Assembly: GCA_016841745.1 (NCBI GenBank)
Contig: JAENYO010000002.1
Coordinates: 310,001 to 374,000 of the forward strand
DNA: 64,000 bases
Source of the DNA: Acetomicrobium hydrogeniformans
GTDB lineage: Bacteria; Synergistota; Synergistia; Synergistales; JAFGMB01
Direction of reading: 5' to 3'
The notes under the pieces: model-generated
Database searches by the model: none
The model's input: only the letters and a program-made list of their open reading frames with translations
Told to the model about the DNA's origin: nothing
Shown here: in pieces, positions 8,818 to 41,485 of the stretch
Numbering within the stretch: position 1 is the first letter of the stretch
How the letters are laid out: each line of letters begins with the position of its first letter
Made by a program: the position numbers and the translations under genes

Positions 8818-9151
8818 GATTACTTCCCCCTTTTTCAATCTATTCTGATTTAGTGTATTTGCGGGGTGTTTAAGTTTCCTGGCCAAACGGTTTTCTACCT
8901 GCCTGTTATCAATTGCAATTGAATATATCTTAAGGCAGGAAGAAAAACAAACTATTTATCTTTGATTCAGTAGTAAAGGGGTTCAATATTTATTAATTTC
9001 TTCTAATTCTAGTTATCCTGTTTTACCCAAATATGATAGGGTATAACTTATATTGCATAGTATATTTCGTTGAAGTTCTGTATAAATTTACAGGAGTAAT
9101 TGAGGTACTTATATAAGATGTCTTGATAAAAGTAGGGGGTAGGGGGATATC
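8818..9151. other. Upstream region of HD gene 2, conserved with HD gene 3, and promoter region of the flavoprotein gene
   Basis: 8830-8970 matches 18840-18990 upstream of the other intact HD gene. Shared blocks include a GATTTRGTGTATTTKCGGGG stretch, CCAAACGKTTTT, CAATTGAATATA and CTTTGATTCAG. The match outside the gene shows that gene and control region were duplicated together. The remainder (8971-9151) is AT-rich and should hold the promoter for the plus-strand gene at 9152, but no box is clear enough to call. Confidence 0.6.
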
Positions 9152-10789: not shown

Positions 10790-11092
10790 GACATTGTCAC
10801 ACCGCAAAGTTGCCAAGGCCGCAATGAAAGCATAATACTTTGGCTAACTGAGAAAAATGAGACTATATTTTCCTCGATTTAAACCCATGAACCCTATTTA
10901 CCATGGAGGTAAATCTGAGTGACACGGAGGGAATCATTAAACCTTTTGCTTACTGTGAAAAATGATGAGTCTATTTTTCACGAGAAAATCAACAAAAATA
11001 CCGAAAACATATTTTTACCGCTGAAGATGAAGGGATTAAGAGGAGTATCTCCTAAAGGAACATAAAACCCTTTCCATTTTTCGAAATACAGA
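10790..11092. repeat. Spacer with degenerate ACCGCA/GGAGG repeats and two small palindromes
   Basis: Short phrases such as CACCGCAAAG, CATGGAGGTAAATC, GACACGGAGGG and TTTACCGCTGAAG recall the ACCGCAGAGG-type intergenic repeats of many bacterial genomes. Two hairpins are embedded: 10850-10875 (arms GAGAAAAAT and ATTTTCCTC, one mismatch) and 10955-10981 (arms GTGAAAAAT and ATTTTTCAC, perfect). Similar hairpins occur at 16753 and 16920. No gene is seen. Confidence 0.6.
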
Positions 11093-11120
11093 AAGCCGCT
11101 GTTTTTTAAGGCAACGGCTT
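11093..11120 (-). terminator. Terminator of the Kef-type operon
   Basis: Arms AAGCCGCTG and CAACGGCTT around TTTTTTAAGG. In the minus transcript the stem is followed by TCTGTATTTCG. It lies about 20 bases after the antiporter stop codon. Confidence 0.7.
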
Positions 11121-11141
11121 CGAGTGATTCTCTCCTTGTTT

Positions 11142-13013
11142 TTATGGTACTTTCGGTTGGTGCTGGGGGTTTTCTGCCGTCCAGGCCTTGTCGAGTTCTT
11201 CCAGGTCTGAGTCAAGGTCCATGGACATGAGTTCTTCCAGGTCTGAAGAATGTTTCTGATAGGTGGATATGTAATTCTCTTGATCTTCACGATGTGTTTT
11301 GTATAGTTCGGGCATCATTTCGTGGTCATGCTTCCGGAAAATACGCATCAATCTGTATGCTTCATAGGGATCGATCCCGAGAAGCTTAAGGGTATCCTGG
11401 CCAAGTGCCAGGGCGCTGCCCAGGGTTTCCCTTCTCAAATTAGTTAATCCCAGGTCCATGAGTTCCCAGGCGGAGGAATGATCGAAGGCATTGGCCGCTA
11501 TTTTAAGGTTTGGGTAGTGCTTGGACGCCAGTTCGACCAGCTTTCTTGAAGGTTCAATATCTCCTATGGTTATGACCAGGAGTTCTGCTTCGGCGGCACC
11601 TGCTGCCTCGAGCAGGTCGAGCCGGGTAATATCTCCGTAATACACTTCGAATCCATATTTTCTGAGAACATCCACATTTGCCTCATCATGGTCGATGATA
11701 ACCGGTCTGATGCCTGTAGATATTAGGAAACGGCCCAGATCGGTTCCCAGACGGCCGAATCCTGCAATAATTACCTTATGTCCGCTGCGGTCAATAGTAT
11801 CTGGCTCAAGTCTGTCTTTTTGATCCCCCTGGTCTTTGATACTGATCTTTTCATAGATCAGGAACAGGAGGGGAGCCAGGAACATGGAGATGGCCACTGC
11901 AGAGATAAGGGGTTCTATGATCTGAGCCTGTAATACGCCGTGGGTCCTGGAAAACTGGAAAAGGACAAAGGCGAATTCTCCTCCCTGGGCCAGGGCAACA
12001 GAAAAGAGAGCGCGCTCCCCTTTAGCCTGTTTAAAGAGAAGTCCGGTTATTACTAGAACCAGCCATTTGACAACGATAAGACAGACTGTAAGTCCTGCAA
12101 TGAGAAGGATCTTTTCTCCGATGAGAGTGAAGTTGAGGCTGGCCCCTATGGAGATGAAAAATATTCCCAGTAACAGGCCCTTGAACGGTTCTATGTCACT
12201 TTCAAGTTCATGGCGGTATTCGCTGTCTGCCAGGACAACACCGGCAAGGAAGGTACCCAGGGCAGGGGAAAGGCCGACTGCTGTCATGAGGAGTGATATG
12301 CCCACTACCAGGGCCAGTGCGGCAGCAACAAAGATCTCTCTGATTCGTGTGGCAGCAATGGTTCTGAATATGGGTCTGCTTGCAAACTTTCCAAGAAAGA
12401 AGATAGACAGTATTGCCAGTAATGTAACCATAGCCTGCATATAACCTGGCAGTGAAGTGATATCAAACAGAGCTGACTCAAGATGACCGCCATCATGAAT
12501 AGCAACTGTTGCCAGGAAAGGAAGAAGGGCAAGCATGGGAATGACCGCCAGATCCTGGAAAAGGAGGACCGAAAAAACAGATCTTCCAGGACAGGTGTTC
12601 ATAAGTCCTTTTTCCCGCAGTGTCTGCAGAACAATGGCAGTGGAGGAGAGAGACAGGGTCAGGCCAACAGCTGTTGCCTGCTGCCATGGCAGGAAGATGA
12701 GAGATATTCCTGTAATTGCAACACTTGACAGGAGAACCTGTGTTCCTCCCATTCCCAGTATGGGGGTGCGCATCTGCCAGAGCAGCGAAGGCTTGAGTTC
12801 CAGACCTACAAGGAAAAGCATCATCACTACTCCGAACTCGGTGAAATGCATTACTTCATCTACATGTCCTATGAGAGAAAGACCGAAGGGGCCGATGATG
12901 ATGCCTGCAATAAGGTATCCCAGCACTGAGCCCAGGCCAAATCTTTTAGCAAGAGGCACGGCAATGGATGCAGCTGCAAGGAATATGAAGAGCTGAAGAA
13001 GGAAGCTTTCCAT
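11142..13013 (-). CDS. Kef-type monovalent cation:proton antiporter (CPA2 family) with RCK domain
   Basis: 623 residues. The first about 390 form a 12-13-helix CPA2 exchanger core ([16 protein letters not shown] near residue 35, a conserved SSTAIVLQ segment, [16 protein letters not shown]). A TrkA-N/RCK domain follows from about 410 ([19 protein letters not shown]), which binds NAD(H) or similar. The acidic, Gln-rich tail is variable. The family exports K+ (or Na+) in exchange for protons and is used for protection against electrophiles or for pH control. AGGAGGT lies seven bases before the ATG and inside the end of the flavodoxin-fold gene at 13016, only two bases upstream, which indicates translational coupling. 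The cation is not determined from sequence. Confidence 0.9.
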
Positions 13014-26028: not shown

Positions 26029-26192
26029 ATTCCATTGTTCCCAGACCGACTAATATAGATTTCCCTGCTGAAGAGATACTTCGTAGACTCTTCTTCTTTG
26101 TTTCAGCATTCTGTCAAATAAGAATTGCAAGTTGTTTCCTCATTAAATTCATCCGCAGATGCCTGCGGTATCCCAAGTCGGAGGTGATACCA

Positions 26193-27746
26193 ATGATAAA
26201 GAAAAACAGAAGTTTATCTTTTCGATTGGCGGCGTTGGCTGTCCCGTTGCTCTTGATATGCCTTTTTATCAATTCCTCACAGGCATTTGCCACGGACTTC
26301 ATGCATGTTCCTGATGGGTCTGAACTTGAAGAGATCCTGGAGAAATTTGAGACCCTGGTTGAAAAGACCCGCCAGGAATTCGGTATACCGGGTATGGCAG
26401 TTGCCATCGCTCAGGGTGACGAGGTCATTTATTCAAAAGGTTTTGGTGTACGGAAGGCTGGAGGGGATAAACCCGTGAGTCCTGATACTGTATTCCAGAT
26501 AGGGTCTACCTCCAAGGCCTTTACTGCAGCCTTGGTCGCGACCCTTGTGGATGAGGGAGCCGTGGGATGGAAGGATACTGTAGTGACCCATCTCCCGGAA
26601 TTCGCCATGGCTGACCCCTGGGTGACCGGAGCTTTTCAGGTCCGGGACCTTATGGCCCAACACAGCGGAATGAAGCCCTACGCATGGGACATTATTTCCC
26701 TGTTCGGTTATGGCAGAGAATATATAGTACGGTCTACGGCGTATATCGAGCCTGTCTACAGTTTTCGGTCCGAGTTCTCCTATGTGAACAACCTGTGGTT
26801 GACGGCGGCTGCCCTGGTCGAGGAAAAGACGGGTAAAAGCTGGGAGCAGAATCTACAGGAGAGAATCCTGGATCCTCTAGGGATGAAGAACACCACTTAT
26901 TCGAAGAAAGCCCTGCTCAGTTCGCCCGAGGCGGTAAGCCCGCACATCTTCAAGAACGATGAGGTTGTCCCTCTCAAAGGGAGCTGGCCCTTTTTTGACT
27001 GGCCATACATTTACGGTCCTGCAGGTGGTATCAATTCGACGGTTCTGGACATGGCAAAGTGGGTTCGGTTTCAGCTTGGCGACGGCAGCTTCGAGGGAAA
27101 GAAGATCCTTTCTTCCCAAAACCTGGAATATCCCCACCATCCCCAGACTCCAATGGATCCAAAAGACTCCTACTGCATGGGCTGGGTCAAGTCGGATTAC
27201 AGGCCCTATCCTCTCATCTGGCACAATGGCGAGACAACAGGCTGCAAGACCCTTGTTATGCTAGTGCCGCAGCTTGAGTTGGGGATGGTCATTCTGTCCA
27301 ACCTTGGAACCCTTGCTCCCGAAGCATTGGGACGTTCCTTTGTTGATATGTACTGCGGAAATACTCCAGAGGAGGACTATCTTTTAAAGACCCTGGAGGG
27401 CTGGAACCTATCAAAGGAAAAAGCAGGTAAGAAGGAAGGGACTGAGCCTGCCTATGTGCCCGATGATTGTTCCATGTACGAGGGTCTGTACGAGAGTGAC
27501 TTCTTTGGAAAGGGCAGTATCCTTCTGGATAAAGGATTCCTCTGGCTGCAGGTTGGTCCCCTGGGCAGGCGTCTGAGACTTGATCCCTTGAAACAGGATC
27601 TCTTTGCCTGCGATGCGGAGGACTTGGGACTGGCCGGAATGGTGCGGTTCGAGCATACCTCTGAGGGACAGATCTCAGGTTTTAATATGACTGATGAAGA
27701 TGGAGACCCTGTAAGCCGTTTCGTAAGAAACAATACTGATCAATAA
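26193..27746 (+). CDS. Exported serine hydrolase of the beta-lactamase/transpeptidase superfamily
   Basis: 517 residues from the ATG at 26193, six bases after GGAGGTG. A signal peptide (cleavage near SQAFA) is followed by a PF00144 domain. S105-T-S-K108 (FQIGSTSKAF) is the nucleophile motif, YVNN is the second motif and HNGETTG the third. A C-terminal extension from about 410 (SMYEGLYESDFFGKGSILL) resembles the DUF3471-type lipocalin-like tail. Such proteins hydrolyse or transfer D-amino-acid peptides or esters in the periplasm. A second paralogous gene follows 96 bases downstream in the same direction, suggesting co-expression. The substrate is not known, and resistance to beta-lactams cannot be inferred. 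Confidence 0.88.
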   Translation: MIKKNRSLSFRLAALAVPLLLICLFINSSQAFATDFMHVPDGSELEEILEKFETLVEKTRQEFGIPGMAVAIAQGDEVIYSKGFGVRKAGGDKPVSPDTVFQIGSTSKAFTAALVATLVDEGAVGWKDTVVTHLPEFAMADPWVTGAFQVRDLMAQHSGMKPYAWDIISLFGYGREYIVRSTAYIEPVYSFRSEFSYVNNLWLTAAALVEEKTGKSWEQNLQERILDPLGMKNTTYSKKALLSSPEAVSPHIFKNDEVVPLKGSWPFFDWPYIYGPAGGINSTVLDMAKWVRFQLGDGSFEGKKILSSQNLEYPHHPQTPMDPKDSYCMGWVKSDYRPYPLIWHNGETTGCKTLVMLVPQLELGMVILSNLGTLAPEALGRSFVDMYCGNTPEEDYLLKTLEGWNLSKEKAGKKEGTEPAYVPDDCSMYEGLYESDFFGKGSILLDKGFLWLQVGPLGRRLRLDPLKQDLFACDAEDLGLAGMVRFEHTSEGQISGFNMTDEDGDPVSRFVRNNTDQ

Positions 27747-27842
27747 AGCTAAGGCAATGTATTGTACGCAAGTTCCACAACAGAGTCCCATGGTCTAAGG
27801 TATTTGGTAGAGGTTGCCGGTTCAATGTGAAGGAGTGAAACT

Positions 27843-29864
27843 ATGCGGAATTTCAACAGATATGTTGTTCTTGTTCCAGTTCTTATTGCGCTTCTGTTTA
27901 TGCCACCATGGTACGGTGAGGCCCTGGAATTCGGGGGGAATTATCCTCAAACTATCTCCACGGCCCGGGAGGTTCTCTGGAAGGCCATATCATCAGGAGT
28001 GAACTCCGCCACAGTTGCTGTAATGGATGGAGGGAATATCGTCTATTCAGAGTGTTTCGGTCCGGCTGACCGGGTAGAGAACAGACTGGTGGATGCCAAT
28101 ACCCGTTTCAACATAGGTTCCACGAGCAAAATGTTCGTTGCAGTCGGGATTTTGCTGCTTGTTGACGAAGGCAAGCTCGATCTCGACGATCCGGTGGTAA
28201 AACATATTCCGGAATTTACCATGCCTGACGAGCGCTACAGGGATATAACAGTTAGAATGCTCTTCAACCACTCGTCCGGTTTACCGGGAACAACATTCCT
28301 GTTCGGTGAAGATCCGGGCAGGGATCTCTATATGCTTCTCCTGGATAATCTCAAGGAGACTTATCTGAAGCATGATCCCGGAGCCATGAGCATTTACTGC
28401 AATGACGGTTTTACCCTTGCGGAAATGATCGTGGAACGCCTTTCGGGACAAAAATATATGGACTTTCTCGCGGAAAAGATTTTCAAGCCTCTGGGAATGA
28501 AGAATACGGGGCCCAGTATAGGTGAAATGGGCGGAAATGTTGCGGAGTACTATGATCCCGGGAATGGAAAGAAATATCCCCTGGAAACGGTGCTGGTCCA
28601 TGCTGCAGGAGGGCTCTCCTCAACACCGGAGGACCTCTGCCGTTTCGGTGACAGTATGGCTCCAGGCGGGAATAATATTCTTTCCAGGGTTTCCCTGGAA
28701 GAATTACTGAAAGAACAGCCTACAACTTCGGTGGGTTGGTTCAAGGGGGATGCCCTTTATAATTCATTCGGTTGGGAACATGCATGGTTGCCTTATTACA
28801 GGGACAGAGGATACCAGGTCCTGGGTAAGGGAGGTAATACGGTGTATTATTCCACCGGATTACAGATACTGCCGTCTGAGAGAATCGCTGTTGCTGTAAT
28901 AATTTCAGGGCAGGCCAGCGGAGAAGGTCTGACCAGTCCCATTCTGGATGCCCTTATGGAGGATAAGGGACTTTTTGACAGGGAAGCACAGGTAGTTGCA
29001 AAACCGGTGAAGCCTCAATCTATTCCCCCCGAGATGTTTCCCTTTGCGGGCTATTATGCCGATGATATGACAGCTGTGCAGTTTGTCTTTGATCAGGAGA
29101 AGCAGACCCTTAACATCTATCCCATACTGCCCTGCCCTGCTGAAGGGAATGGAGAGAGGGTACCTGCGCTGGTTTTGACCTATAACAACGGCTATTTCCA
29201 CAACTTTGAGAGAAAGATGCGCTGCTATTTTCTCAAGGAAAAGGGAAATACCTTTCTTGTAGTAGAGAAGATCCCTGTCTATGGCAGCGATGTCTGGATC
29301 TTTCAGAAACTTGAAGAGATCCAAGACCCAGTGAAACTTTCAGTTGAAATGGATGGAGCCACCTGGCTCGCGAGAAATATGCCTGCCCTGACTATGGTAG
29401 ATGAGGATCCTTTTCTGGTCAGATCTTCTTTGAACCCTGACATCCCGGGATATCTTTCCTTTTGCGGAGTGATGAAGATAGATGAGCCTGCCTACGCAAG
29501 CATTGCAGCGACAGCCTTCCGCGATCAAAGAGATCTGCGACTTTTCCGTAAAAACGGAGAGATCCGTGTGAGGACGGGGCTGTTTGTCTTCTCAGAGGAG
29601 AATGTGGCGGCAACAGTCAAAGACGGTAAGAACAGAATCATCATCGGTGCTGAGGGAGAGAATGAATGGATGAGGGTGTTGTCTAAATCTATTCTTTCAT
29701 TCGAAAAACCGCAGAATGGGCGGGTTCTGGTAATGACGGCCCGGAAAGGCGTACCAATGCTTTTCGACAGCGATGTTGATAGCGGAGAAATATACGCGCC
29801 CGCGGGCAGCTTTGTCTTCCTCGCCGGGTTTCCGGGGGATGTTTTCGAGGTAACGGCGCGGTAA
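27843..29864 (+). CDS. Exported serine hydrolase of the beta-lactamase/transpeptidase superfamily, longer paralogue
   Basis: 673 residues; AAGGAG precedes the ATG by eight bases. A signal peptide (cleavage near YGEA) leads into a PF00144 domain with S93-T-S-K96 (FNIGSTSKMF), YCNDGF and a GKGGNT block at the third motif position. From about residue 390 a long C-terminal region (PEMFPFAGYYADDMTA onward) forms beta-rich domains, more than in the upstream paralogue. The genes share order and spacing but differ much in the C-terminal half, so they likely act on different substrates. Location is periplasmic or surface. Confidence 0.85.
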   Translation: MRNFNRYVVLVPVLIALLFMPPWYGEALEFGGNYPQTISTAREVLWKAISSGVNSATVAVMDGGNIVYSECFGPADRVENRLVDANTRFNIGSTSKMFVAVGILLLVDEGKLDLDDPVVKHIPEFTMPDERYRDITVRMLFNHSSGLPGTTFLFGEDPGRDLYMLLLDNLKETYLKHDPGAMSIYCNDGFTLAEMIVERLSGQKYMDFLAEKIFKPLGMKNTGPSIGEMGGNVAEYYDPGNGKKYPLETVLVHAAGGLSSTPEDLCRFGDSMAPGGNNILSRVSLEELLKEQPTTSVGWFKGDALYNSFGWEHAWLPYYRDRGYQVLGKGGNTVYYSTGLQILPSERIAVAVIISGQASGEGLTSPILDALMEDKGLFDREAQVVAKPVKPQSIPPEMFPFAGYYADDMTAVQFVFDQEKQTLNIYPILPCPAEGNGERVPALVLTYNNGYFHNFERKMRCYFLKEKGNTFLVVEKIPVYGSDVWIFQKLEEIQDPVKLSVEMDGATWLARNMPALTMVDEDPFLVRSSLNPDIPGYLSFCGVMKIDEPAYASIAATAFRDQRDLRLFRKNGEIRVRTGLFVFSEENVAATVKDGKNRIIIGAEGENEWMRVLSKSILSFEKPQNGRVLVMTARKGVPMLFDSDVDSGEIYAPAGSFVFLAGFPGDVFEVTAR

Positions 29865-30377: not shown

Positions 30378-31325
30378 TTGATGCAACAAAGAAAGGCAGT
30401 TTATTTCTTCTGTATTGACTCCATGGACCACGTGGGGGGCAACGTCCTTTCTGCAGTTTCAGAAAATCATCCCATGGAAGAGACAGATATCGTTGTAGAT
30501 GGGGAAACAGTGCTGAAATATGAAGACGAGAAAGGGAATAGCTTCTTTTTTGTCTCGACCCGCAAGCCTGTCAGCCATGACTACGTTCACTACCTGCCGA
30601 TCCTTAACCGTCACTTTTCAAACTTCGACGTGGCCGGAATCGTTACATGGCATGAGGGCCAGAATGCTCCTGACGCCATCCTGACCGTACATACCACCGG
30701 AGATGTGGACTCGGGCAATTTCGGTCCGGCTTCACCCGAGTATATGAGAAATATCCTTCTCTCAATGGAAAGGAACAGGATAGAAGCGGGGCTGGATAAT
30801 TATAGTGTCACCACGGAAGCAACTCACTGGTCCGGGATGGTCTATGAAGGAGGCACCCCGGCAATGATATCCCAGTATCCCGTAACCATGCTCGACATAG
30901 AGATCGGAAGTACTCCTGTTTGCTGGTCCAATAAAAAAGCAGCAGGAGTGCTTGCTCGATCCCTGACCTTCGTTTTTGAGAGCGACGGGCTCAGGGTCAG
31001 GAACCTGTTATGTGCCGGAGGGGTCCATTTTGAAACAGGCTTTGCAAGTGCAGTCTTCACTACATGGGGTGATTCCGCTTTCGGGATCTCCCACATCCTT
31101 GCCAACCAGTGGCTCGTTACGGGGGGTTATGACAGGGAAGATGGGTTGTCGAGACTGAGGGCCTGTGTAAGCAGCATCCATGGAGGAATAGAAGGGATTG
31201 CCTTCCACGACAACCTCAAGGGAGTCTATAAAGATCAGCTGCGTACTCTGGCTGAAGAACTGGGAATTCCTGTTTTCAAGCACAAAAAATTGCGGAAACC
31301 GGACAGTATTTCCTGGCGCAACTGA
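30378..31325 (+). CDS. DTD2/GEK1-type D-aminoacyl-tRNA deacylase (PF04414-like)
   Basis: 315 residues. AGGAGG lies eight bases before the TTG at 30378 and eleven before an ATG at 30381; the relic at 14108 keeps the TTG but not the ATG, so TTG is preferred. Family marks are ILTVHTTGDV, TTEATHWSGMVYEGG, PVTMLDIEIGSTPVCW and LLCAGGVHFETGFASAVF, the His-containing motifs of archaeal DtdA and plant GEK1. The family frees tRNA from D-amino acids and, in plants, from aldehyde-modified aminoacyl adducts. Bacteria generally use the unrelated DTD1, so this gene may have come by transfer. It appears monocistronic. Confidence 0.8.
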   Translation: MMQQRKAVYFFCIDSMDHVGGNVLSAVSENHPMEETDIVVDGETVLKYEDEKGNSFFFVSTRKPVSHDYVHYLPILNRHFSNFDVAGIVTWHEGQNAPDAILTVHTTGDVDSGNFGPASPEYMRNILLSMERNRIEAGLDNYSVTTEATHWSGMVYEGGTPAMISQYPVTMLDIEIGSTPVCWSNKKAAGVLARSLTFVFESDGLRVRNLLCAGGVHFETGFASAVFTTWGDSAFGISHILANQWLVTGGYDREDGLSRLRACVSSIHGGIEGIAFHDNLKGVYKDQLRTLAEELGIPVFKHKKLRKPDSISWRN

Positions 31326-31463: not shown

Positions 31464-31817
31464 CTATTCCGGGGATATGGGACGGTTATTCTTTCCCCAC
31501 TCGCACATCTGTTCCATAAGAGGAATAAGAGAAAGTCCTTTGGAAGTCAGGGAATATTCAACCTTAGGAGGGACTTGGGGATATTCCTGTCTTGACACAA
31601 GTCCGCATGATTCCATTTCTTTCAATGCTGAACTCAAAACTTTGTAGGAGATCCTTCCCATCATTCGATGCAGTTCATTGAACCTCATCACATTTCCGTT
31701 CTGGGCAATGCAATACAGGATAATCATCTTATGTTTTCCGCCTATAAGGGAGAGTGTATAGCCAAAGCCGGTGTCATGTATCGAAGCCCCTGAGGGTATA
31801 CAGTCTTTATTTACCAT
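31464..31817 (-). CDS. HxlR-family winged-helix transcriptional regulator
   Basis: 117 residues with GGAGGTG before the ATG. The HxlR pattern is present: a Cys near the N-terminus (C6, possible redox or thiol sensor), LIGGKHKMIILYCIAQNG, MRFNELHRMMGRISYKVLSS recognition helix and the beta-hairpin wing ending VEYSLTSKG. HxlR regulators respond to thiol stress, aldehydes or metabolites and usually control an adjacent gene. The divergent dihydrodipicolinate-reductase-like gene at 31990 is about 170 bases away and is the obvious candidate target. No clear palindromic operator was seen between them. Confidence 0.88.
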   Translation of the reverse strand: MVNKDCIPSGASIHDTGFGYTLSLIGGKHKMIILYCIAQNGNVMRFNELHRMMGRISYKVLSSALKEMESCGLVSRQEYPQVPPKVEYSLTSKGLSLIPLMEQMCEWGKNNRPISPE

Positions 31818-31989: not shown

Positions 31990-32784
31990 ATGATAAAAGT
32001 TTTTGTAGCAGGATCATCGGGTAATGTGGGCAGCACTATTGTCAGGACCATACAGAAAACAGAAGGTTTTGAACTTGTAGGAGGCTGGTGTAAAGATGCT
32101 GGCCAGGATCTGGGAACCCTTGCCGGCATAGAACCACTTGGACTTCTTGTCGCAACCAGCCTGGAAGAAGGGCTTGGTGAATCGAAGCCTGATGTGGTGA
32201 TCGACTTTACTGCCACAACTGTCCTGGAGGGCAGTTTGAAAACCTATCTTAAGCATGAACTTAATGTGGTGATTGGAACTACTGGTCTTACGGATGAACA
32301 GATCGAACCATTCAAAAAAGAAGTAGAGGTAAAAGGTCTCAGGTGGGCTATTGTCCCTAATTTCGGTCTTGGAATCAGCCTGGTCTCTGAATTTATCAAA
32401 AAGGCAAGACAGTTCTATCCCTTTGTTACCATAACAGACCAGCATCCTAACACAATGGCTAATGCTCCCAGTGGAACTGCTGGAGCTCTTGCGGATGTTG
32501 CTTCCGCTGGCGATATGGGTGAAGTAGCAAGTACAGAGAGCTATCCTGGAGTTCTCGGTGGAAAGATATCCAATGTGCAGGTCTTTTCTCAACGTCTTCC
32601 GTGGCCTGGTCCATATTCTGGACACGAGATCACCCTTGCACGTCAGGACGAGATAATCAAGATCTCGGTACAGGACCATACAAGCGATATTTACATGGAT
32701 GGTGTATTTCTTACTGCCAGGAAGATTTCTGAATTTCCTGCAGGTTCTCTCATCAGAAGTCTTGCAGAGGTCATGAACAAATAA
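31990..32784 (+). CDS. Dihydrodipicolinate-reductase-like oxidoreductase without the catalytic Lys
   Basis: 264 residues; GGAGGGATAAGCT precedes the ATG. It has an N-terminal Rossmann domain (VFVAGSSGNVG, residues 5-14), the DVVIDFTATT and VVIGTTGLTDEQ loops and a C-terminal DapB domain with NAPSGTA. At the active site the proton donors of DapB are H-x-x-x-K-x-D; here they are H152, M156 and N158 (QHPNTMANAPSGTA). The missing Lys and Asp make true dihydrodipicolinate reductase activity unlikely and point to a different substrate. A paralogue with the same changes lies at 39381. A divergent HxlR regulator may control the gene. A terminator follows. Confidence 0.85.
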   Translation: MIKVFVAGSSGNVGSTIVRTIQKTEGFELVGGWCKDAGQDLGTLAGIEPLGLLVATSLEEGLGESKPDVVIDFTATTVLEGSLKTYLKHELNVVIGTTGLTDEQIEPFKKEVEVKGLRWAIVPNFGLGISLVSEFIKKARQFYPFVTITDQHPNTMANAPSGTAGALADVASAGDMGEVASTESYPGVLGGKISNVQVFSQRLPWPGPYSGHEITLARQDEIIKISVQDHTSDIYMDGVFLTARKISEFPAGSLIRSLAEVMNK

Positions 32785-32849
32785 ACAAATTCTACCTTAA
32801 TATAGCGCGAAATCCCGTTTAAGGGTAATTCACTGTCAGTTATAAGAAG

Positions 32850-32885
32850 TAAAAAGTCACCTTAAAATTCGCAGGTGGCTTTTTA
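32850..32885 (+). terminator. Terminator after the 31990 gene
   Basis: Arms TAAAAAGTCACC and GGTGGCTTTTTA (one mismatch), T-rich on the plus strand and A-rich before, so possibly usable by the convergent gene at 32937 as well. Confidence 0.8.
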
Positions 32886-32936
32886 CGATTTCCCAGGCGA
32901 TTTCACAAGCCCGAGCAATTATTATTTTAGAGAAGG

Positions 32937-33767
32937 TTATCTTATCTCAAATTCAATTACGCCGAGTTTGCCGAAATCGGCCTTATACAGTCCGGGCTTA
33001 CCGGGGATCATGTTTCCCAGGGCACCGGTAAGGAGAACGTCTCCGGGTTTTATTGTCCAACCTTTGGATACCATGGTATCTACCAGCCACATTACTGCTT
33101 CCCATTGTGATCCCATGGCATCGGAACCCTTTCCTTCGTTGACGGTTTCCCCATTTCTTGTGAGGACTACATTAACTGCATCAAGATCCATTGCCTTGTT
33201 CTTTTTATTTCCCACGATGAACTGGGTAGCCGAGACATTGGCCGCGATGAGGTCTACTCCCTTAAGGGCTTTAAGATCGGCGAAGTTAAGATCGGGCAGT
33301 TCAATGGCGGGAAGAACTGCTCCGATGTGGCTTTTAAGATCCTCCACGTAGCATATCCTTTGGTTTATTGCCCTTTTAACGTAGAAGGCGATCTCGGTCT
33401 CTATCATGGGTCTGGCGAATGCTTCTGAAAGTATAAGAGGCGAGCCTGATTTTTTGCCCGAACGGTAGAGGACTCCTGCAACCGATTCACTGACCCTGAA
33501 TTTTTCCCGGGCTCCCGGAGTGGTAAGCCCTGCCTTGTAACCCGCAATCGAATCGCCATCCAGGCGCATTGTTACATATTTTTTCTGAATCTCGTAGGCC
33601 TGAGAGATATCAAGCCTGGAATCGGTTTGTGAAAGAAGTGGAAGAAGTTCATTATTCATGTGTGCCTCTACAAGGAGCCGTGCCATATCATCGGTGGAAG
33701 ACCATGCCGTGACCGAAAGCATTACCATGAGGAGAAGAGCCATTACGGGGATATATCTTTTTCTCAT
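32937..33767 (-). CDS. Exported 2-keto-4-pentenoate hydratase-like protein (FAH superfamily)
   Basis: 276 residues from MRKRYIPVM; GGAGG lies eight bases upstream, and an in-frame ATG at 33782 precedes that site. A signal peptide (MALLLMVMLSVTAWSS) is present. The mature part fits MhpD/4-oxalocrotonate-decarboxylase-like enzymes: ISQAYEIQKKYV near the N-terminus, YKAGLTTPGAREKF, the Glu-rich metal site RPMIETEIAFYV, then LPAIELPDLNF and GDVLLTGALGNMIP. Relatives are cytoplasmic enzymes of meta-cleavage pathways, so secretion is unusual. Metal ligands are retained, suggesting it is active in the periplasm. It is monocistronic. Confidence 0.85.
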   Translation of the reverse strand: MRKRYIPVMALLLMVMLSVTAWSSTDDMARLLVEAHMNNELLPLLSQTDSRLDISQAYEIQKKYVTMRLDGDSIAGYKAGLTTPGAREKFRVSESVAGVLYRSGKKSGSPLILSEAFARPMIETEIAFYVKRAINQRICYVEDLKSHIGAVLPAIELPDLNFADLKALKGVDLIAANVSATQFIVGNKKNKAMDLDAVNVVLTRNGETVNEGKGSDAMGSQWEAVMWLVDTMVSKGWTIKPGDVLLTGALGNMIPGKPGLYKADFGKLGVIEFEIR

Positions 33768-33934
33768 TTTTTCAACCTCCATTAAAATGATCTACATGAA
33801 CACGCTACCTTAATATAGTATCACCATGAAGAACAAGCAACAACGGGATATATGATCCAGATCACGACAATGGGGTCTACTATTGAAATCATTGATAAGG
33901 GAAGCCCCAAAAGCTCTGAAAAAGATATAAGATA

Positions 33935-33979
33935 AATAAGAGACGGAGGTACGGCTAAGCCGTACCTCCGTCTCTTATT
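33935..33979. repeat. Perfect 45-bp palindrome
   Basis: Twenty-two-base arms AATAAGAGACGGAGGTACGG+CT and their exact complement surround a single A. It lies between the divergent ends of two genes: the minus-strand gene at 34146 ends 166 bases to its right and the 32937 gene starts 168 bases to its left. It could be a distant terminator of the 34146 gene, but the length and perfection are exceptional. The rest of 33768-34145 shows no gene. Confidence 0.9.
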
Positions 33980-34145
33980 ATTGTCAGTTCCATGGAGTAA
34001 AATATATTTTGATAAAAGGATTGTACTAAGCTCACCTGATTTATTCCAGATATTCTGTCCTTGATATAATCCCACGTATCAGGTTCCAGTTTAAATTACC
34101 TTTTTGATATCCTGGCCGCATCACTTTAAAGTAAGGACAGCTCTT

Positions 34146-35027
34146 TCAATATAGTGATTCAGGGGGAAGTTTTACAGGTATCTGCAGAATTATCTTCTGT
34201 TTTTTTCCATCTCTTTCAATGATCGTATCGATCTTTTTGCCCAGATTTTCCTGGATCACAAGTTTGAAAAACTCGATCGATTCATCGGGTCCCATTACCT
34301 TCCCGGCAGCCGAAACAATACGGTCACCTGGTTTTAGACCGAGGGAAGAAGCGACGCTTCCTTGGTAAACTACCATTAGGTAGAAGGGGTTTGTGGACCT
34401 GGTCTGCACTCCAAGCCTGAATCTTGACGGGCGGGAGCTGATCCCAAGGAAATATGTCAAGCCAGCAGGGATGGTTTTCTTAAATGTTGCAGATTGTTGA
34501 TAGAGTGTTATAGTCTGTTCACGTTTTGAGCTGATAGTATCCTCGACCAGATTGCGTAAAGCTATGGAACGTTTCTGTAAGTCGGCACACTGGGCCGTGA
34601 AAGCTTTTGCCTGCTGTCCGGTTACGATAGCCTTGATGAAATACTCGCCGGCACTCACTTCCTGGTTCCCAGCGTCGATAGCTGTGCTGATCAGGTCCTT
34701 CCTGAGGGAGTCTTCCGTTGTAACAGCAGCTATTTTGCTGATTGCCTGCTTCAGTTTCATTTGGTAGTTGTACACATCCTGGGGAACACCGTCTAAATAT
34801 CCATTACCGTTTGTCTTAGCGTCAGCCCATGCCAATATCACGACGTGTTCGTTAAGCATGATAAGATAATTCCCAAGCGCGGAATCTTCTGGTACCTGGG
34901 TTTGTGCGTTTTCTGCAGCCTTTTGTGGCAGAGGCTGCATGGCTGCCCATAGGGGGTTTGAAAAAAATATGGATAACAGTGTAACTGTAAAGAGAGCAGT
35001 GATAGCATTCTTCCTGGTTCTGGTCAT
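34146..35027 (-). CDS. Exported PDZ-domain protein
   Basis: About 293 residues from MTRTRKNAI; GTGAGGAAATA precedes this ATG. A signal peptide is cleaved near LWAA. Residues about 40-170 are helical and Gln/Lys-rich with no named family. From about 195 comes a PDZ domain (FRLGVQTRS, VVYQGSVASSLGLKPGDRIV, then FKLVIQENLGKKIDTIIERD). No protease domain is fused, so it probably acts as an adaptor or scaffold in the periplasm. The gene stands alone with a type A repeat upstream. Confidence 0.8.
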   Translation of the reverse strand: MTRTRKNAITALFTVTLLSIFFSNPLWAAMQPLPQKAAENAQTQVPEDSALGNYLIMLNEHVVILAWADAKTNGNGYLDGVPQDVYNYQMKLKQAISKIAAVTTEDSLRKDLISTAIDAGNQEVSAGEYFIKAIVTGQQAKAFTAQCADLQKRSIALRNLVEDTISSKREQTITLYQQSATFKKTIPAGLTYFLGISSRPSRFRLGVQTRSTNPFYLMVVYQGSVASSLGLKPGDRIVSAAGKVMGPDESIEFFKLVIQENLGKKIDTIIERDGKKQKIILQIPVKLPPESLY

Positions 35028-35130
35028 TATTTCCTCACCATCCATTCAGAGATAGGCAGTTTAATGACATACCCAAATTTATTATAAGATAAAATTCACG
35101 TTATAGCTTTTCAAAAGTGAAAAAAGGTCA

Positions 35131-35173
35131 CAATAATGGGGTCAGATCTTGATTTTAACCGTATGTATGCAAT
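35131..35173 (+). repeat. Type A dispersed repeat, copy 4
   Basis: CAATAATGGGGTCAGATCTT then GATTTTAACCGTATGTATGC then AAT. It ends at the first base of the stop codon of the DUF985 cupin gene, so the repeat inserted right at the end of that gene. The left part (TTTTTATTGACATT) found in copies 2 and 3 is absent. Confidence 0.9.
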
Positions 35174-35664
35174 TAGTGATGTCCTTGTAAACCAGTTTCA
35201 GGCTTTTGTGAAAGATCCACCAGACTGATCAATTCAGGATAATTCTCTATTACATGTTTTCCTATTCTTTCATCCGGATCCATCAATTCAAAATCTGAAT
35301 ACGCAAAACCAGGTGCCACTGAACATCCCACAAGCACCTTACTGGCTAAAGGCACTGCTGCCTGCCACGATCCTGCCTTGACGACGTGGCAATATTCTCT
35401 CTTTGAGGGAGACAGTTCAACCCTATCCATCTCTTCTTTCTGTTCATCCCACAGGTACAGAACCAGTCCCTTACCCTCATAAAGATTCCAAACCTCATCA
35501 CTTTCAACTTTGTGGAACCTGCTTACCTCATCTTTCTCAAGAGAAAAATAAATATGGGTTAAAGCACGCCTTTTCCTTGAACCTTCCGTGACTTTCGTAT
35601 CAGACCGATAAACCTGTTTGAACCTGCCACCCTCGGGGTGTTCAATTAATTCATGATCCTGCAT
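35173..35664 (-). CDS. DUF985 cupin-family protein
   Basis: 163 residues of the Cupin_5 (DUF985, PF06172) type: LIEHPEGGRFKQVYRS near the N-terminus, LTHIYFSLEKDEVSRFHKVESDEVWNLYEG with the metal or ligand His and Glu, and CSVAPGFAYSDFELMD. The fold is a cytosolic beta-barrel; no activity is firmly established. The C-terminal residues LQGHH are coded right up to a type A repeat, so the end of the protein may have been altered by the insertion. The ribosome-binding site is weak. Confidence 0.85.
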   Translation of the reverse strand: MQDHELIEHPEGGRFKQVYRSDTKVTEGSRKRRALTHIYFSLEKDEVSRFHKVESDEVWNLYEGKGLVLYLWDEQKEEMDRVELSPSKREYCHVVKAGSWQAAVPLASKVLVGCSVAPGFAYSDFELMDPDERIGKHVIENYPELISLVDLSQKPETGLQGHH

Positions 35665-35866
35665 TATATATCATCTCGATCCCTGATTTGTATTTTTTAA
35701 TATGTTTTGAATCCAAAAATGAAAATAACAAACCTGGCCAGGAAGTCAACCGCCTTTTATTTAATAAATAAAAGGAATAAAATTATAATGTTAAAGTGAT
35801 AGAGCGTTATATGGAGCTTGAAAAAAATTTATCGAACCTGAACGCCAGAAGCAGGAGGGTAGCGTA

Positions 35867-37252
35867 ATGAAGATAGTGGTGCTACATGGAAGCCCAAAGG
35901 GAGAAGTAAGTGTTACCATGCAGTATGTGAGATATCTGCAACAGGAGTTCCCTCAGCATGAGTTTGTATCCTTTCCGGTTGCGCAGCGGATAAAGCTCCT
36001 TGAAAAAGATCCCGATCTCTTTGAGGAAATTATCGATCAGGTTCGGAGGGCTGACGGGATTATCTGGTCCTTTCCTCTTTATGTAATGACGGTGTGTTCC
36101 CAGTATCAGAGATTTATGGAACTCATCCATGAAAGATATTCAGAAGACGCTTTTGCAGGAAAATATTGTGTATCACTATCCACTTCCATTCATTTCTATG
36201 ATCACACAGCTCATAACTATATAAGGGCCATTGCGGAAGATATGGGGATGATATTTGTTTCTTGTTTTTCAGCTGAAATGCAGGATCTGCTTAAAGAAGA
36301 AAAACGTTCAGAGCTTGTTTCTTTCGGAGAGATGTTCTTTCGTGCAATCGAAGAAAAGAGATCCTTCCCCAGGGCTTTTGATCCGGTCAGATCTTCCGCA
36401 TTTATCTATGAACCCACACCAAGTCAGGAGAAGATATCCCTTAGAGGTAAAAAGGCAGTTATCCTTCATGATATTAAGGAAGGGGATAACAATCTTGAGA
36501 ATATGATCCACTATCTTACGAATTCCATTGAAGGAGACATCGAGGTCTGTAACCTCAATGAAGTGGATATCAGGGGAGGGTGTCTCGGGTGTTGTAAATG
36601 CGGATATGACAATACCTGTGCCTGGGAGGGAAAGGATAGTTTTGTCGATCTTTATAACAATATTCTAATGAAAGCAGATATTCTGTTCTTTGCCGGTACA
36701 CTTCGACAGAGATATTTTTCTTCCCGATGGAAGATATTCTATGACCGGTCCTTCTTCAAGACCCATCAACCCTGGTTTAAAGGCCAACAGCTGGGTTACC
36801 TTATTTCAGGCCCCTTAAGGCAGAATGAGAATCTCCGTGAGATCATCCTGGCTTATTCAGAGGTCTTTGAGGCTAAACTGGCCGGAATTGTAACCGATGA
36901 GTGCAATACTTCGGAAGAACTTGACCTTCTTATAAGTGATCTGGCAGACCGGACTGTTACGGACAGTGTAAAGGGAAGCAGAGCCCCTAAAACTTTTCGA
37001 GGTGTAGGAGGTATGAAGGTCTTCAGGGATGCCATGTGGGGAAAACTGCGTTTTGTTTTTCAGGCTGACCACCGGTATTACAAAAAGCATGGGGTCTATG
37101 ACTTTCCACAATATGACTGGAAAGTGAGGGTTTTAAATACTTTTGTTACGCCCCTGGTGCATATCCCGGCAGTTAGAAAAATAATCTTTACTGATATTTC
37201 CCATCACATGATCCGGCCATATCAGAAACTGTTCAAGGACAAGAAAAAGTAA
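35867..37252 (+). CDS. Tandem flavodoxin-fold (NADPH-dependent FMN reductase-like) protein
   Basis: 461 residues; GCAGGAGGGTAGCGTA precedes the ATG. It contains two flavodoxin-like domains in one chain. The first (about 1-170) starts MKIVVLHGSPKGEVSVTMQY with the FMN-phosphate loop and PLYVMTVCSQYQRFME. The second (about 195-400) starts KKAVILHDIKEGDNN and has a Cys cluster (GGCLGCCKCGYDNTCAW) like iron-sulfur flavoproteins. Two complete domains in one protein are uncommon; one may have lost flavin binding. The final 60 residues are basic. It may reduce electron acceptors or transfer electrons within the cell. It lies upstream of the patatin gene. Confidence 0.82.
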   Translation: MKIVVLHGSPKGEVSVTMQYVRYLQQEFPQHEFVSFPVAQRIKLLEKDPDLFEEIIDQVRRADGIIWSFPLYVMTVCSQYQRFMELIHERYSEDAFAGKYCVSLSTSIHFYDHTAHNYIRAIAEDMGMIFVSCFSAEMQDLLKEEKRSELVSFGEMFFRAIEEKRSFPRAFDPVRSSAFIYEPTPSQEKISLRGKKAVILHDIKEGDNNLENMIHYLTNSIEGDIEVCNLNEVDIRGGCLGCCKCGYDNTCAWEGKDSFVDLYNNILMKADILFFAGTLRQRYFSSRWKIFYDRSFFKTHQPWFKGQQLGYLISGPLRQNENLREIILAYSEVFEAKLAGIVTDECNTSEELDLLISDLADRTVTDSVKGSRAPKTFRGVGGMKVFRDAMWGKLRFVFQADHRYYKKHGVYDFPQYDWKVRVLNTFVTPLVHIPAVRKIIFTDISHHMIRPYQKLFKDKKK

Positions 37253-37335
37253 AATGGCTGCAGAGGCCGCAGGAGAGAATGAATGGTCTGGCCAGTGGCC
37301 AATGATAAAACAATTGATATGAAGAGGGATGTAGC

Positions 37336-38104
37336 ATGAACAGGTTAGGTGAAAACATAAAGGTCGGTCTTGCCCTGGGAGGCGGTGCTGTTCTTGGTGC
37401 TGCTCATATAGGAGTTTTAAATGCACTCGAAGAGTATGGTATTTCTGTAAATTATGTTGCAGGGACTAGCATTGGTGCGCTGATCGCAGCCTTTTTAGCC
37501 TTTGGCAAGGGATGGCAAGAAATTACCGAGATAGTAAAAGACCTGAACTGGCTGGATATTTCGGGGATATCCCTTTCACAGTTTGGTTTACTCTCCAACA
37601 AAAAACTGGGCAGACTGATAATAGAAAATCTGGGAGACGTTAATTTTAATGAAGCTTTTATCCCGATCGCCATGGTGGCGATGGACATTTCGACAGGAGA
37701 AAAGATTGTGCTGAAAAAGGGGAGTTTGGCAGCAGCTATTATGGCGAGTACCTGCATTCCGGATATCTTCGTACCTGTTGAGATAAATGGGAAACTTCTT
37801 GTTGACGGGGGTATTGTTGAAAACGTTCCGGTAACTACGCTGAAAGATATGGGGGCCGATATGATCATCGGTGTTGATCTGAATGCTAAACATACCCATA
37901 AAAAAACCTCGGAACATCGTTGAAGTATTATTGAGATCCTTTGATTTTACATTGAAGACCGCTACCAAGCTGCAGACAGAGCAGGCAGATATTCTCATAG
38001 AACCGGATCTCTCATCTTTCAATATGGTGGATATCGACCAGATGGATGATCTGATCGATAAGGGGTACCAGGAAGCGAGTCTAGTATTGCATCAGATAAG
38101 ATGA
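37336..38104 (+). pseudogene. Patatin-like phospholipase gene with a frameshift in an A7 run
   Basis: Frame 1 (37336-37923) gives 195 residues with the patatin fold: LALGGGAVLGAAHIGVL oxyanion hole, AGTSIGALIAAF with the catalytic Ser, and DGGIVENVPV with the catalytic Asp. It ends 20 bases after a run of seven A at 37900-37906. The next frame (from 37883) continues the family's C-terminus: KKPRNIVEVLLRSFDFTLKT through DLIDKGYQEASLVLHQIR. Deleting one A joins the two into about 255 residues. The short form keeps the catalytic dyad, so it may still work; slippage in the A7 run could also yield the full form. A copy of the C-terminal part lies at 30036-30134. Confidence 0.8.
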
Positions 38105-38265
38105 AGCCCAAAATGATCACGTTTTGCGTGAGCGTTTCTCTAGTGCTATATTGAGATTTCTGCTTCTGCTTTTATATAAAAGCCCTGGATGCATCATATA
38201 TAATTAACAGGTCTGCAGATTCATTAAATTCAGATGTGAATTTCCGGAGGAGGGATCAGGTTTTC

Positions 38266-39252
38266 ATGGGTGTTTCACAAAACGAGTTAAGGGTCTCCAT
38301 CATTCAGCATCCGCCAGTTTATATGAATCTGGAGGCAAGTATTGATAAGGCGTCCACCCTCATAGGGAAAGCATCTTCAGCGGGATCCAGGGTAATCGTA
38401 TTTCCGGAAACCTGGCTGCCTGGCTACCCCGTATGGCTTGACAGCTCTCCCCATGTTGCCCTTTGGGGAAATGAACCCACTAAAAAACTCTACAGAGCCC
38501 TGGTAAATAATTCACTGACCATACCGGGGCCCTATTTCGAAAGGTTAATGAAGATAGCGGGAGATAACAAGGTCTACGTTGTTATGGGATGTCACGAACT
38601 GGTTGGCAATACGCTCTTTAACACCATGCTTTATTTAAAGCCAGATGGCGAGACTTACTCCCTGCACAGGAAACTTATGCCCACCTTCACAGAAAAACTC
38701 ATATGGGGAATGGCTGATGGAAGCACTCTTTCTGCTGTTGAAACCGAGTTTGGAAATATGGGGGGATTGATATGCTGGGAACACTGGATGCCCTTTGGCA
38801 GGGCAGCCATGCATGAACAGAAGGAAGTATTACATATAGCCCAATGGCCTGCAGTCAAGGATCTCCATCAGTTGGCAAGCCGTCATTATGCTTTTGAAGG
38901 ACAGTGCTTTGTGGCTGCAGCGGGTACAGTTTTAACGAAAAAGGATGTTCTCAGCGGTTTTGATTCCCTTAAAGATCCTGATCCCTGTGCAAGGGAGGTC
39001 CTTGCAGCAATTGAAGGAGAAGAGGATGAAATGCTCCAGAATGGCGGAAGTTCATTCATCAGGCCGGATTCCAATTATGTAACAGAGCCTCTTTTTGAGA
39101 AATGTGAAATCATCACAGCTTCGCTGGATCTCCAGGAGATAGTGGAAGGGCACCTTCTCATGGATACAGCCGGCCATTATTCAAGACCGGACATTTTTGA
39201 GCTGAAAGTAAACACAAAAGCACAGAAGAATATATGTTCAACCCATAATTAG
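38266..39252 (+). CDS. Nitrilase-family carbon-nitrogen hydrolase
   Basis: 328 residues from the ATG at 38266; GGAGGAGGGA is ten bases upstream, while the in-frame GTG at 38236 has no site. The catalytic triad is visible: Glu in VFPETWLPGYP, Lys in HRKLMPTF and Cys in GGLICWEHWMPF. The CWEHWMP context is that of true nitrilases (branch 1), which convert organic nitriles to acids and ammonia, rather than amidases. The C-terminus (GHYSRPDIFELKV) also fits. It is a cytosolic oligomeric enzyme; the natural substrate is unknown. It is convergent with the 39381 gene across a shared terminator. Confidence 0.88.
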   Translation: MGVSQNELRVSIIQHPPVYMNLEASIDKASTLIGKASSAGSRVIVFPETWLPGYPVWLDSSPHVALWGNEPTKKLYRALVNNSLTIPGPYFERLMKIAGDNKVYVVMGCHELVGNTLFNTMLYLKPDGETYSLHRKLMPTFTEKLIWGMADGSTLSAVETEFGNMGGLICWEHWMPFGRAAMHEQKEVLHIAQWPAVKDLHQLASRHYAFEGQCFVAAAGTVLTKKDVLSGFDSLKDPDPCAREVLAAIEGEEDEMLQNGGSSFIRPDSNYVTEPLFEKCEIITASLDLQEIVEGHLLMDTAGHYSRPDIFELKVNTKAQKNICSTHN

Positions 39253-39332
39253 AAAATATTTTCTCAGGGGAAATCCCGGTGAAGCTCGAGAAAACGTAAA
39301 AGCTGAGACAGGTGGTAAAGCTGATATTTAAA

Positions 39333-39370
39333 ATAAGAGCAGGAGTCTTTTCACTGACTCCTGCTCTTAT
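39333..39370. terminator. Bidirectional terminator
   Basis: Perfect 15-base arms ATAAGAGCAGGAGTC and GACTCCTGCTCTTAT around an eight-base loop, between convergent genes ending at 39252 and 39381. Confidence 0.88.
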
Positions 39371-39380
39371 AGTGGTTGCT

Positions 39381-40190
39381 TTATTCGAGGATGGTATTTT
39401 GCAGATCTGACAGGGTTGTTATGATGGTTCCAGGAGGGAATTTTCCTATGGAATCCGCCGCCAGAAAAATTCCCGGGAGATACACTTCGCTTGAAAAGTC
39501 CTGTACATTGATCCTGATGATCTCGTCGGTCCGGCCAAGGGTTATCTCATGTTCCGAGTAAGGACCGGGATAGGGCATCCTCTGGGAAAGTATCTGAACC
39601 CTGCCTGCACTTCCTCCAAGGACATGGGGGAGAACTTCCCTGCTTTTGACATTACCGGAGTTCCCATTGGCGGCGGCTTCTGCAATGGACATGGCAGTCC
39701 CGCTGGGAGCATTGGCCATTTGTGAGTGATGACGGTCGATGACGCTTACATAGGGGTAATAGGTGCTCACTTTCTTGAGGAAGTCCATAACGAAGTTCAT
39801 TCCCAGCCCGAAGTTGGAGATGATCGCCCACCTTGTCCCTGCCTCTTTTGCAAGTGTACGAACTTCATCCATCATTTCATCGTCAAAACCGGTAGTCCCT
39901 ATTACTGCATTGATCCTGTTCTTAGCGTATATCCTCATGTTATCCATGATGATCCTGGCGGAAGTGAAGTCAATGACCATATCAGGTTTTAACTGGTCCA
40001 TGGCATATTCCAGGTCTGAAGTACAACACATCCCTATGGGTTCCAGTCCTGCTGCAGCAGCGATATCCTGGCCGGTACCGGAACAGAAACCGCCCGCAAG
40101 GTGGTATTTCTCACTTTTTATTATGGCCCTGGCTATGCAGCTTCCCACATTTCCTGTGACACCTGAAACGAAGATCTTCATTTTATCCAT
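39381..40190 (-). CDS. Dihydrodipicolinate-reductase-like oxidoreductase without the catalytic Lys, second paralogue
   Basis: 269 residues; AGGAGGTTTTGTA precedes the ATG. It has a Rossmann start (IFVSGVTGNVG), DMVIDFTSAR, AVIGTTGFDDE and NFGLGMNFVMDFL, then NAPSGTA. At the proton-donor motif it reads RHHSQMANAPSGTA, with H154 kept but Met 158 in place of Lys and Asn 160 in place of Asp. It shares these exchanges and general length with the 31990 gene, about 45-50 percent identical by eye. The pair probably form a distinct family rather than lysine-biosynthesis DapB. It is transcribed alone. Confidence 0.85.
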   Translation of the reverse strand: MDKMKIFVSGVTGNVGSCIARAIIKSEKYHLAGGFCSGTGQDIAAAAGLEPIGMCCTSDLEYAMDQLKPDMVIDFTSARIIMDNMRIYAKNRINAVIGTTGFDDEMMDEVRTLAKEAGTRWAIISNFGLGMNFVMDFLKKVSTYYPYVSVIDRHHSQMANAPSGTAMSIAEAAANGNSGNVKSREVLPHVLGGSAGRVQILSQRMPYPGPYSEHEITLGRTDEIIRINVQDFSSEVYLPGIFLAADSIGKFPPGTIITTLSDLQNTILE

Positions 40191-40657: not shown

Positions 40658-41485
40658 ATGCTCAGGATTACTACGCTGGTTGAAAATACAGCGGGGGAGC
40701 ACCACGCACTTAAAAACGAACACGGTATCTCCTTCTACATCGAAAAGGACGACCATAAGCTGTTGTTCGATACGGGGCAGTCCGATGCCTTCCTCAGAAA
40801 TGCCACCCAGATGGGAATAGATCTTTCGGATCTTGAATATGTTGTTATAAGCCACGGTCACTACGATCATTCAGGCGGATTCCGCCATATTGCTGCTCAA
40901 TCCAGTTCTTTCAGGTTGAGGGTCGGCCGGGGTTTTTTTGACGAAAAATATGCTCTCCGTAACGGCGCCTATGATTTTCTAGGCAACAATTTCGATGAAA
41001 CCTTTCTAAGAGACCATCGTATTTCCTGGGCTTACTCAACCAGAAAGGTTGAGGAAATTCTTCCAGGTGTCTTCATCCTTTCATGTTTTTCCCGTTTCCA
41101 GGATGATGAAAAGGTCAATTCCAGATTTCTGATCCGTAAGGATGGCAAGTTCGTACAGGACAACTTTGATGATGAGATACTCCTTGCCATTGAAACTTCC
41201 AGGGGATTGGCAGTTCTGCTAGGATGTTCCCATCCTGGGATGCGGAACATGCTGGACACCGTAAAAAAACGTCTTGGAAAGCCAATTTATGCGGTGCTTG
41301 GTGGGACCCACCTGGTGGAGTCAAAGGGAGGCAGCCTGGAAAAATCCCTGGAGTATCTTCATGACCCCGAAACCTGTATTGTAGGAGTATCCCACTGTAC
41401 CGGAGAGGAGGCGATGTCCTTTCTGAAGGAGACGAACGAAAGGTTCCTCCATAATATAACAGGCACTTCACTGTTCCTGGAGTAG
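40658..41485 (+). CDS. Metallo-beta-lactamase-fold hydrolase (dihydropterin-phosphate synthase-like group)
   Basis: 275 residues; GGGAGGTGTTAAT precedes the ATG. The metal motif SHGHYDHSGG (about 65-74) is followed by further ligands in LLGCSHPGMRNML and GVSHCTGEEAM and by GGTHLVES. This arrangement is that of the archaeal methanopterin-related dihydropterin synthase-like subgroup, and also of some quinolone-type signal hydrolases, so the true reaction is uncertain. It is the first gene before the TRAP transporter, 80 bases from the binding-protein start, suggesting a joint operon. Cytosolic. Confidence 0.85.
   Translation: MLRITTLVENTAGEHHALKNEHGISFYIEKDDHKLLFDTGQSDAFLRNATQMGIDLSDLEYVVISHGHYDHSGGFRHIAAQSSSFRLRVGRGFFDEKYALRNGAYDFLGNNFDETFLRDHRISWAYSTRKVEEILPGVFILSCFSRFQDDEKVNSRFLIRKDGKFVQDNFDDEILLAIETSRGLAVLLGCSHPGMRNMLDTVKKRLGKPIYAVLGGTHLVESKGGSLEKSLEYLHDPETCIVGVSHCTGEEAMSFLKETNERFLHNITGTSLFLE

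Follow-up and report, generated by a model that had tools for sequence, protein, structure and literature searches.

The closest described relatives of the proteins analysed here are the dihydrodipicolinate reductases (DapB; TIGR00036, PF01113 plus PF05173). Their 'DAP box' is given as ELHHxxKxDAPSGTA in an excerpt of one source, with a His, Lys, Asp, Ser, Gly and Thr as substrate-binding residues (PMC10714930). A second group comprises the native amine dehydrogenases (AmDH), including 2,4-diaminopentanoate dehydrogenase (NF040740; structures 6g1m and 6iau), which have a related two-domain fold and carry out the type of reaction proposed below, NAD(P)H-dependent C=N reduction; a catalytic Glu at position P3 is described as a feature of native AmDHs in an excerpt of PMC11164908. 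The third, ProC (1-pyrroline-5-carboxylate reductase, TIGR00112), belongs to a different protein family and resembles the present proteins in the proposed reaction only. According to passages of PMC9044972, C. difficile converts hydroxyproline to proline by means of HypD and the proC-encoded P5C reductase, and proC adjoins hypD in some clostridia.

Two genes with the DapB fold lie in the window, i.e. the whole stretch of 64,000 nt that was analysed. Gene A (31990-32784, plus strand, a 264-aa ORF) and gene B (39381-40190, minus strand, a 269-aa ORF) are separated by 6.6 kb and are paralogues of what we refer to as the M-x-N clade, their products being 48% identical. Both ORFs, their spacing of about 7 kb and an HxlR regulator divergent from one of them had been reported in an earlier note, and all were borne out. 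Both proteins scored above the Pfam cut-offs for DapB_N and DapB_C. They also narrowly exceeded the cut-off of 122 bits for TIGR00036, the NCBI dapB equivalog (A, 128.9 bits; B, 130.4 bits). This model was unable to separate the M-x-N clade from DapB and would label A/B-type proteins as lysine-pathway enzymes. Neither A nor B matched TIGR00112 in an NCBIfam scan. The HxlR/MarR-type regulator (31464-31817, minus strand; PF01638, 95.5 bits; RrpA model, 128 bits, below that model's cut-off of 185) is divergent from A across a gap of 172 bp and might possibly control it. A metallo-beta-lactamase-fold hydrolase (40658-41485, plus strand; PF00753, 44.7 bits) is divergent from B, and at another locus (L166) an MBL-like protein, assigned by eye and without an NCBIfam match, is encoded just upstream of the homologue; a link of this hydrolase to B is conceivable. 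Promoter-like sites near A were no more frequent than in shuffled sequence, and no Rfam matches or tRNA genes were found in the 64,000 nt.

The altered DAP box of A reads TDQHPNTMANAPSGTA (residues 150-164, D-Q-H-P-N-T-M-A-N-A-P-S-G-T-A; 32437-32481, plus strand) and that of B IDRHHSQMANAPSGTA (residues 152-166, D-R-H-H-S-Q-M-A-N-A-P-S-G-T-A; 39693-39737, minus strand). In E. coli numbering, H152, M156 and N158 of A correspond to H159, K163 and D165. The earlier note had claimed that Lys is replaced by Met and Asp by Asn in both proteins with the DapB fold and APSGTA being kept. This was confirmed, and it understated the change: A, B and the clade have a D-x-H-x3-M-x-N-APSGTA box instead of E-x-HH-x-x-K-x-D-APSGTA, and the exchanges of E157, H235 and R240, the lack of conservation of the second His and a set of new invariant residues had been missed. 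Met and Asn were present in 36 of 36 proteins picked by similarity alone (34 loci plus A and B) and in 14 of 14 additional loci, for which the search pattern was open at those positions; in a fifteenth additional locus, L302, both were found and the His was absent.

For a comparison by position, 53 clade rows (36 picked by similarity alone and 17 by the M/N pattern; two of the 53 partial) were aligned with 65 K-type rows, which have the canonical Lys and Asp and of which a few are repeats of one gene. Residue numbers were mapped onto E. coli DapB, and alignment was the sole basis for locating the pocket. His159, Lys163 and Asp165 are invariant in the K-type rows because these were picked with an H...K.D pattern. 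Within the clade, K163 is replaced by Met and D165 by Asn in all 53 rows, E157 by Asp in 51 of 53, and H160, the second His of the HH pair, is not conserved. Outside the DAP box, H235, a His in 65/65 K-type rows, is V, I or L in 53/53 clade rows (V in A and B), and R240, an Arg in 65/65 K-type rows, is Ser in 53/53 clade rows, A and B included; in A the replacing residues are V227 and S232 (32668-32685, plus strand). The position of E38 is mostly Cys in the clade (46/51) and mostly Asp or Glu in the K-type rows (53 of the 62 filled), an exchange that, read from the sequence, may bear on cofactor use. Shared with DapB are the domain order, the glycine-rich nucleotide loop (GxxGxxG), the GTTG segment with T103-T104-G105, N128, the PSGT(A) loop and H159, which is retained in 53/53 clade rows, 17 of them selected with His in the search pattern. 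New invariants specific to the clade include R118, S210, R218 and S232, and in a separate clade alignment R118, H212, R218, E221 and S232 were present in 19 of 19 rows. Among the DapB positions discussed, we take K163, H159 and R240 to be catalytic or carboxylate contacts in the E. coli enzyme. The change is thus a coordinated rebuilding of the pocket and more than the loss of two residues, and it makes the clade a clean natural case of such rebuilding in a reductase, with the changed positions listed above. With the DapB features that touch the substrate absent, A and B should be classed as a DapB-fold family of their own.

The loss of residues linked to catalysis or substrate would also fit non-catalytic proteins that sense NAD(P)H or a ligand or that partner another protein, as would the unconserved neighbourhoods described below. 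An extra M-x-N copy, L302 (8004-8783, minus strand, genome G179), has kept Met and Asn and lost both the catalytic His and Asn124. We nevertheless regard a sensor or partner role as improbable for the clade, because its pocket residues, including the new ones found in all 19 rows, are invariant clade-wide and H159 is kept in every aligned row.

A maximum-likelihood tree computed from 116 rows placed the M-x-N proteins on one side of a branch with a support of 100/100 and a length of 1.36, apart from DapB. A and B fell into different subclades of 24 rows (98/95) and 6 rows (99/93); given this and their identity of 48%, they do not stem from a recent tandem duplication. A single copy, L290, was found in another genus of the family; B is 70% identical to it and A only 48%, so that A may be the later arrival. 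Between A and five relatives of 66-77% identity, pN was 0.14-0.20 with pS saturated. The clade is under strong purifying selection and hence not in decay. Taken together with the clade-wide, coordinated change of the active site, this lends good support to the earlier suggestion that the shared change reflects another class of substrate and not random decay.

Carriers of the family amount to 48 of 185 Synergistota genomes and 23 of 62 genera. Multiple copies occur in three genomes, G000 and G170 with two each and G179 with three. A broader collection of genome contigs was scanned with A-type peptides, and among the best 80 of 136 relatives 16 with a readable motif were M-x-N, 15 of them under a Synergistota label and the other from a Bacillota MAG (L010). 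A further hit within these 80, L023, carries a Balneolia label but covers only 64 residues and does not include the motif. Within the collection of papers searched, none joined dihydrodipicolinate reductase and Synergistetes, and among the matches listed (8 of 81 in one case) none bore on a pyrroline or imine reductase of the DapB type; neither result implies absence in print.

An AlphaFold2 model of A, based on a 37-sequence alignment, had a mean pLDDT of 93.2. Its best PDB match was M. tuberculosis DapB with NADPH and PDC (1c3v; Z 28.6, 1.9 Å over 239 residues), and amine dehydrogenases scored lower (6g1m, Z 20.4). In both Foldseek and VIA-align, DapB came first and AmDH next. The hosts come from a lineage that ferments amino acids, which, along with the related fold, would suit amine dehydrogenases or reductive aminases that act on open-chain keto compounds and ammonia in the manner of 2,4-diaminopentanoate dehydrogenase. 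That enzyme had also been put forward earlier for comparison, and the likeness held for the fold but not for the sequence: NF040740 reached 24.9 bits for A (cut-off 400), gave no match for B and matched, weakly, one of 19 clade members, the similarity being negligible outside the N-terminal nucleotide-binding part. In addition, A/B-type proteins are about 70 residues shorter than the NF040740 model and retain the His-PSGTA site of DapB, and a Pfam scan of A and B at E 0.001 gave no AmDH-type C-terminal domain. An amine dehydrogenase function thus appears very unlikely.

We propose instead that A and B are re-purposed DapB-fold, NAD(P)H-dependent cyclic-imine reductases with a different, probably monocarboxylic, substrate, a reading that we consider slightly better than an even bet. 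As in DapB, the His would serve as acid while NAD(P)H donates a hydride to a cyclic imine. The catalytic His is preserved, and so are the fold, the GTTG and PSGTA loops and the glycine-rich nucleotide motif. The residues with which DapB binds or protonates its dicarboxylic substrate (K163, D165, E157, H160, H235 and R240) are replaced throughout the clade, and new conserved charged residues appear. The substrate would then lack the two-carboxylate arrangement of that of DapB and might be a ring imine with one carboxylate that arises when amino acids are broken down; 1-pyrroline-5-carboxylate, 1-pyrroline-2-carboxylate and 1-piperideine-2-carboxylate are examples. The clade thereby offers a small set of substrates from hydroxyproline and proline fermentation that can be tested.

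The earlier note had held that the absence of any other dapB alongside an intact lysine pathway would speak against a different substrate. In the genome of the window, a canonical dapB (C10:68119-68649) lies beside dapA (C10:68766-69611), and that contig also carries lysA and dapF, so that this situation does not apply. Pairing of dapB with dapA is usual in Synergistota; the canonical gene adjoins dapA, whereas A and B do not. The M-x-N enzymes would accordingly not be needed for lysine synthesis in this organism.

Pathway genes were counted in 149 of the 185 Synergistota genomes, comprising 35 carriers and 114 non-carriers. A K-type DapB with the canonical Lys and Asp was found in 5/35 carriers, and 30/35 had no other DapB_C-domain protein, compared to a DapB_C protein in 90/114 non-carriers. 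At a cut-off of E 1e-60, dapA was detected in 11/35 carriers and 95/114 others, six of the eleven positive carriers having only a weaker match of 207-235 bits. The corresponding numbers were 14/35 and 102/114 for lysA and 31/35 (one of them, G059, with a weak match only) and 97/114 for dapF, and dapL as a route to diaminopimelate was above cut-off in 0/149 genomes. One might argue from the passed TIGR00036 cut-off, the missing second DapB and the retained dapF that A/B-type proteins are true HTPA/dihydrodipicolinate reductases whose active site is unusual, and that they stand in for DapB in genomes without an ordinary one. However, dapA is absent at that cut-off in 24/35 carriers and lysA is missing in 21/35, making a role in a DapA-dependent pathway unlikely there, and the genome of the window has kept its canonical dapB-dapA pair. 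Moreover, the Lys, Asp and Arg240 positions are altered throughout the clade. Within family f2, a second DapB was missing in 14/17 carriers and 11/18 non-carriers, which is not significant (p 0.26), and the contrast in lysine genes between carriers and non-carriers is largely one between families. The M-x-N family does not track the DapA-dependent pathway, and we judge a genuine DapB function to be unlikely. With 30/35 carriers lacking another DapB and 24/35 lacking dapA, automated predictions of lysine prototrophy could go wrong in such genomes.

Two observations from these counts may be noted separately. Whereas dapF is kept in 31/35 carriers, dapA was found in only 11. One of the five K-type cases is atypical: L217 (1413-2282, genome G136) encodes an extra DapB-family protein with DYHSRDKPDAPSGTA, located not near dapA but in the vicinity of genes resembling an Asp/Glu racemase and a GntR regulator (both by eye), possibly representing another divergent DapB type.

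For the proposed cyclic-imine reductases, we favour 1-pyrroline-5-carboxylate, as formed by the hydroxyproline dehydratase HypD, as the single best substrate candidate, a tentative choice that may well be wrong. HypD was present in 32/35 carriers and 32/114 non-carriers (Fisher 1.3e-11), in 19/19 carrier genera and 14/34 others (1.2e-5), and, within family f2, in 17/17 carriers and 11/18 non-carriers (0.008). The three carriers without HypD, G059, G099 and G106, are 94, 87 and 91% complete. The correlation follows lineage, those of dapA, dapB and lysA being about equally strong with opposite sign; the HypD association is therefore confounded by phylogeny, and lineage explains much of it. Clustering of HypD loci displayed HypD in 51 of 56 loci, the five carrier loci marked 'noHYPD' resulting from simple gene calling. 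ProC was not seen beside HypD in the clustered loci, a weak negative as four reference loci may be without ProC frames.

At one locus, L148 in genome G134, the M-x-N gene lies 109 bp upstream of, and on the same strand as, a gene for a HypD-like glycyl radical enzyme (8908-11313; 1072.6 bits, just under the cut-off of 1100). Next come a permease-like gene and one for a HypD-type activase (376 bits against a cut-off of 425), and a divergent gene of the proline racemase/epimerase family adjoins. This arrangement occurs in 1/35 carriers only, the other neighbourhoods being unrelated. G134 has two HypD-type enzymes, and the one encoded next to the DapB-like gene may have a different cyclic amino acid as its substrate.

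Replacement of ProC, judged by complementary occurrence, was considered and rejected, as strong ProC matches were found in 19/32 HypD-positive carriers and 16/32 HypD-positive non-carriers.

Beyond small lineages, no neighbour was common across genera at the loci surveyed (34, 11 named and 14 further loci), i.e. there was no conserved operon. For a tally of neighbours, 7 near-duplicate loci were removed and, of 101 ORFs within two genes, 19 were dropped by eye as likely antisense or spurious, leaving 82 neighbours from 27 loci. Pfam matches included EamA (5), Amidohydro_1 (4), SNF (3) and Amidohydro_3 (2), with no common family. The amidohydrolase matches, of which the two types may fall on the same proteins, would suit another ring or imine unrelated to proline, for example from the catabolism of N-acyl, cyclic-amide or hydantoin-type amino acids. 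By eye, these matches were placed in L156, L161, L163 and L164 and an amidohydrolase-like gene was recognized upstream in L008, and two nearby genes in the window encode nitrilase-like and hydratase-like proteins. However, such neighbours were found in two to three lineages only, and since the same tally contains five EamA and three SNF transporter matches, no neighbour family stands out. A substrate of this kind therefore seems to us a rather poor prospect. Returning to the reductases of cyclic imines from proline metabolism, we can only infer the substrate, given the lineage-confounded HypD association, the unconserved neighbourhoods and the non-complementary ProC. That DapB-fold pyrroline-carboxylate reductases of Synergistota take the HypD product to proline, replacing ProC or working beside it, is accordingly a speculative suggestion, with perhaps one chance in several of being right.

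Several other genes near A and B deserve mention. A D-aminoacyl-tRNA deacylase (30378-31325, plus strand; PF04414, 93.8 bits) with a TTG start is encoded in this Synergistota genome; the DTD2/GEK1 type to which PF04414 corresponds is mainly archaeal and plant. The 2-keto-4-pentenoate hydratase-like protein at 32937-33782 (minus strand) has, by eye, a signal-peptide-like start, which is unusual for a cytosolic enzyme family. Finally, two neighbouring genes in tandem at 26184-29864 (plus strand) encode large proteins with a serine beta-lactamase fold (PF00144).
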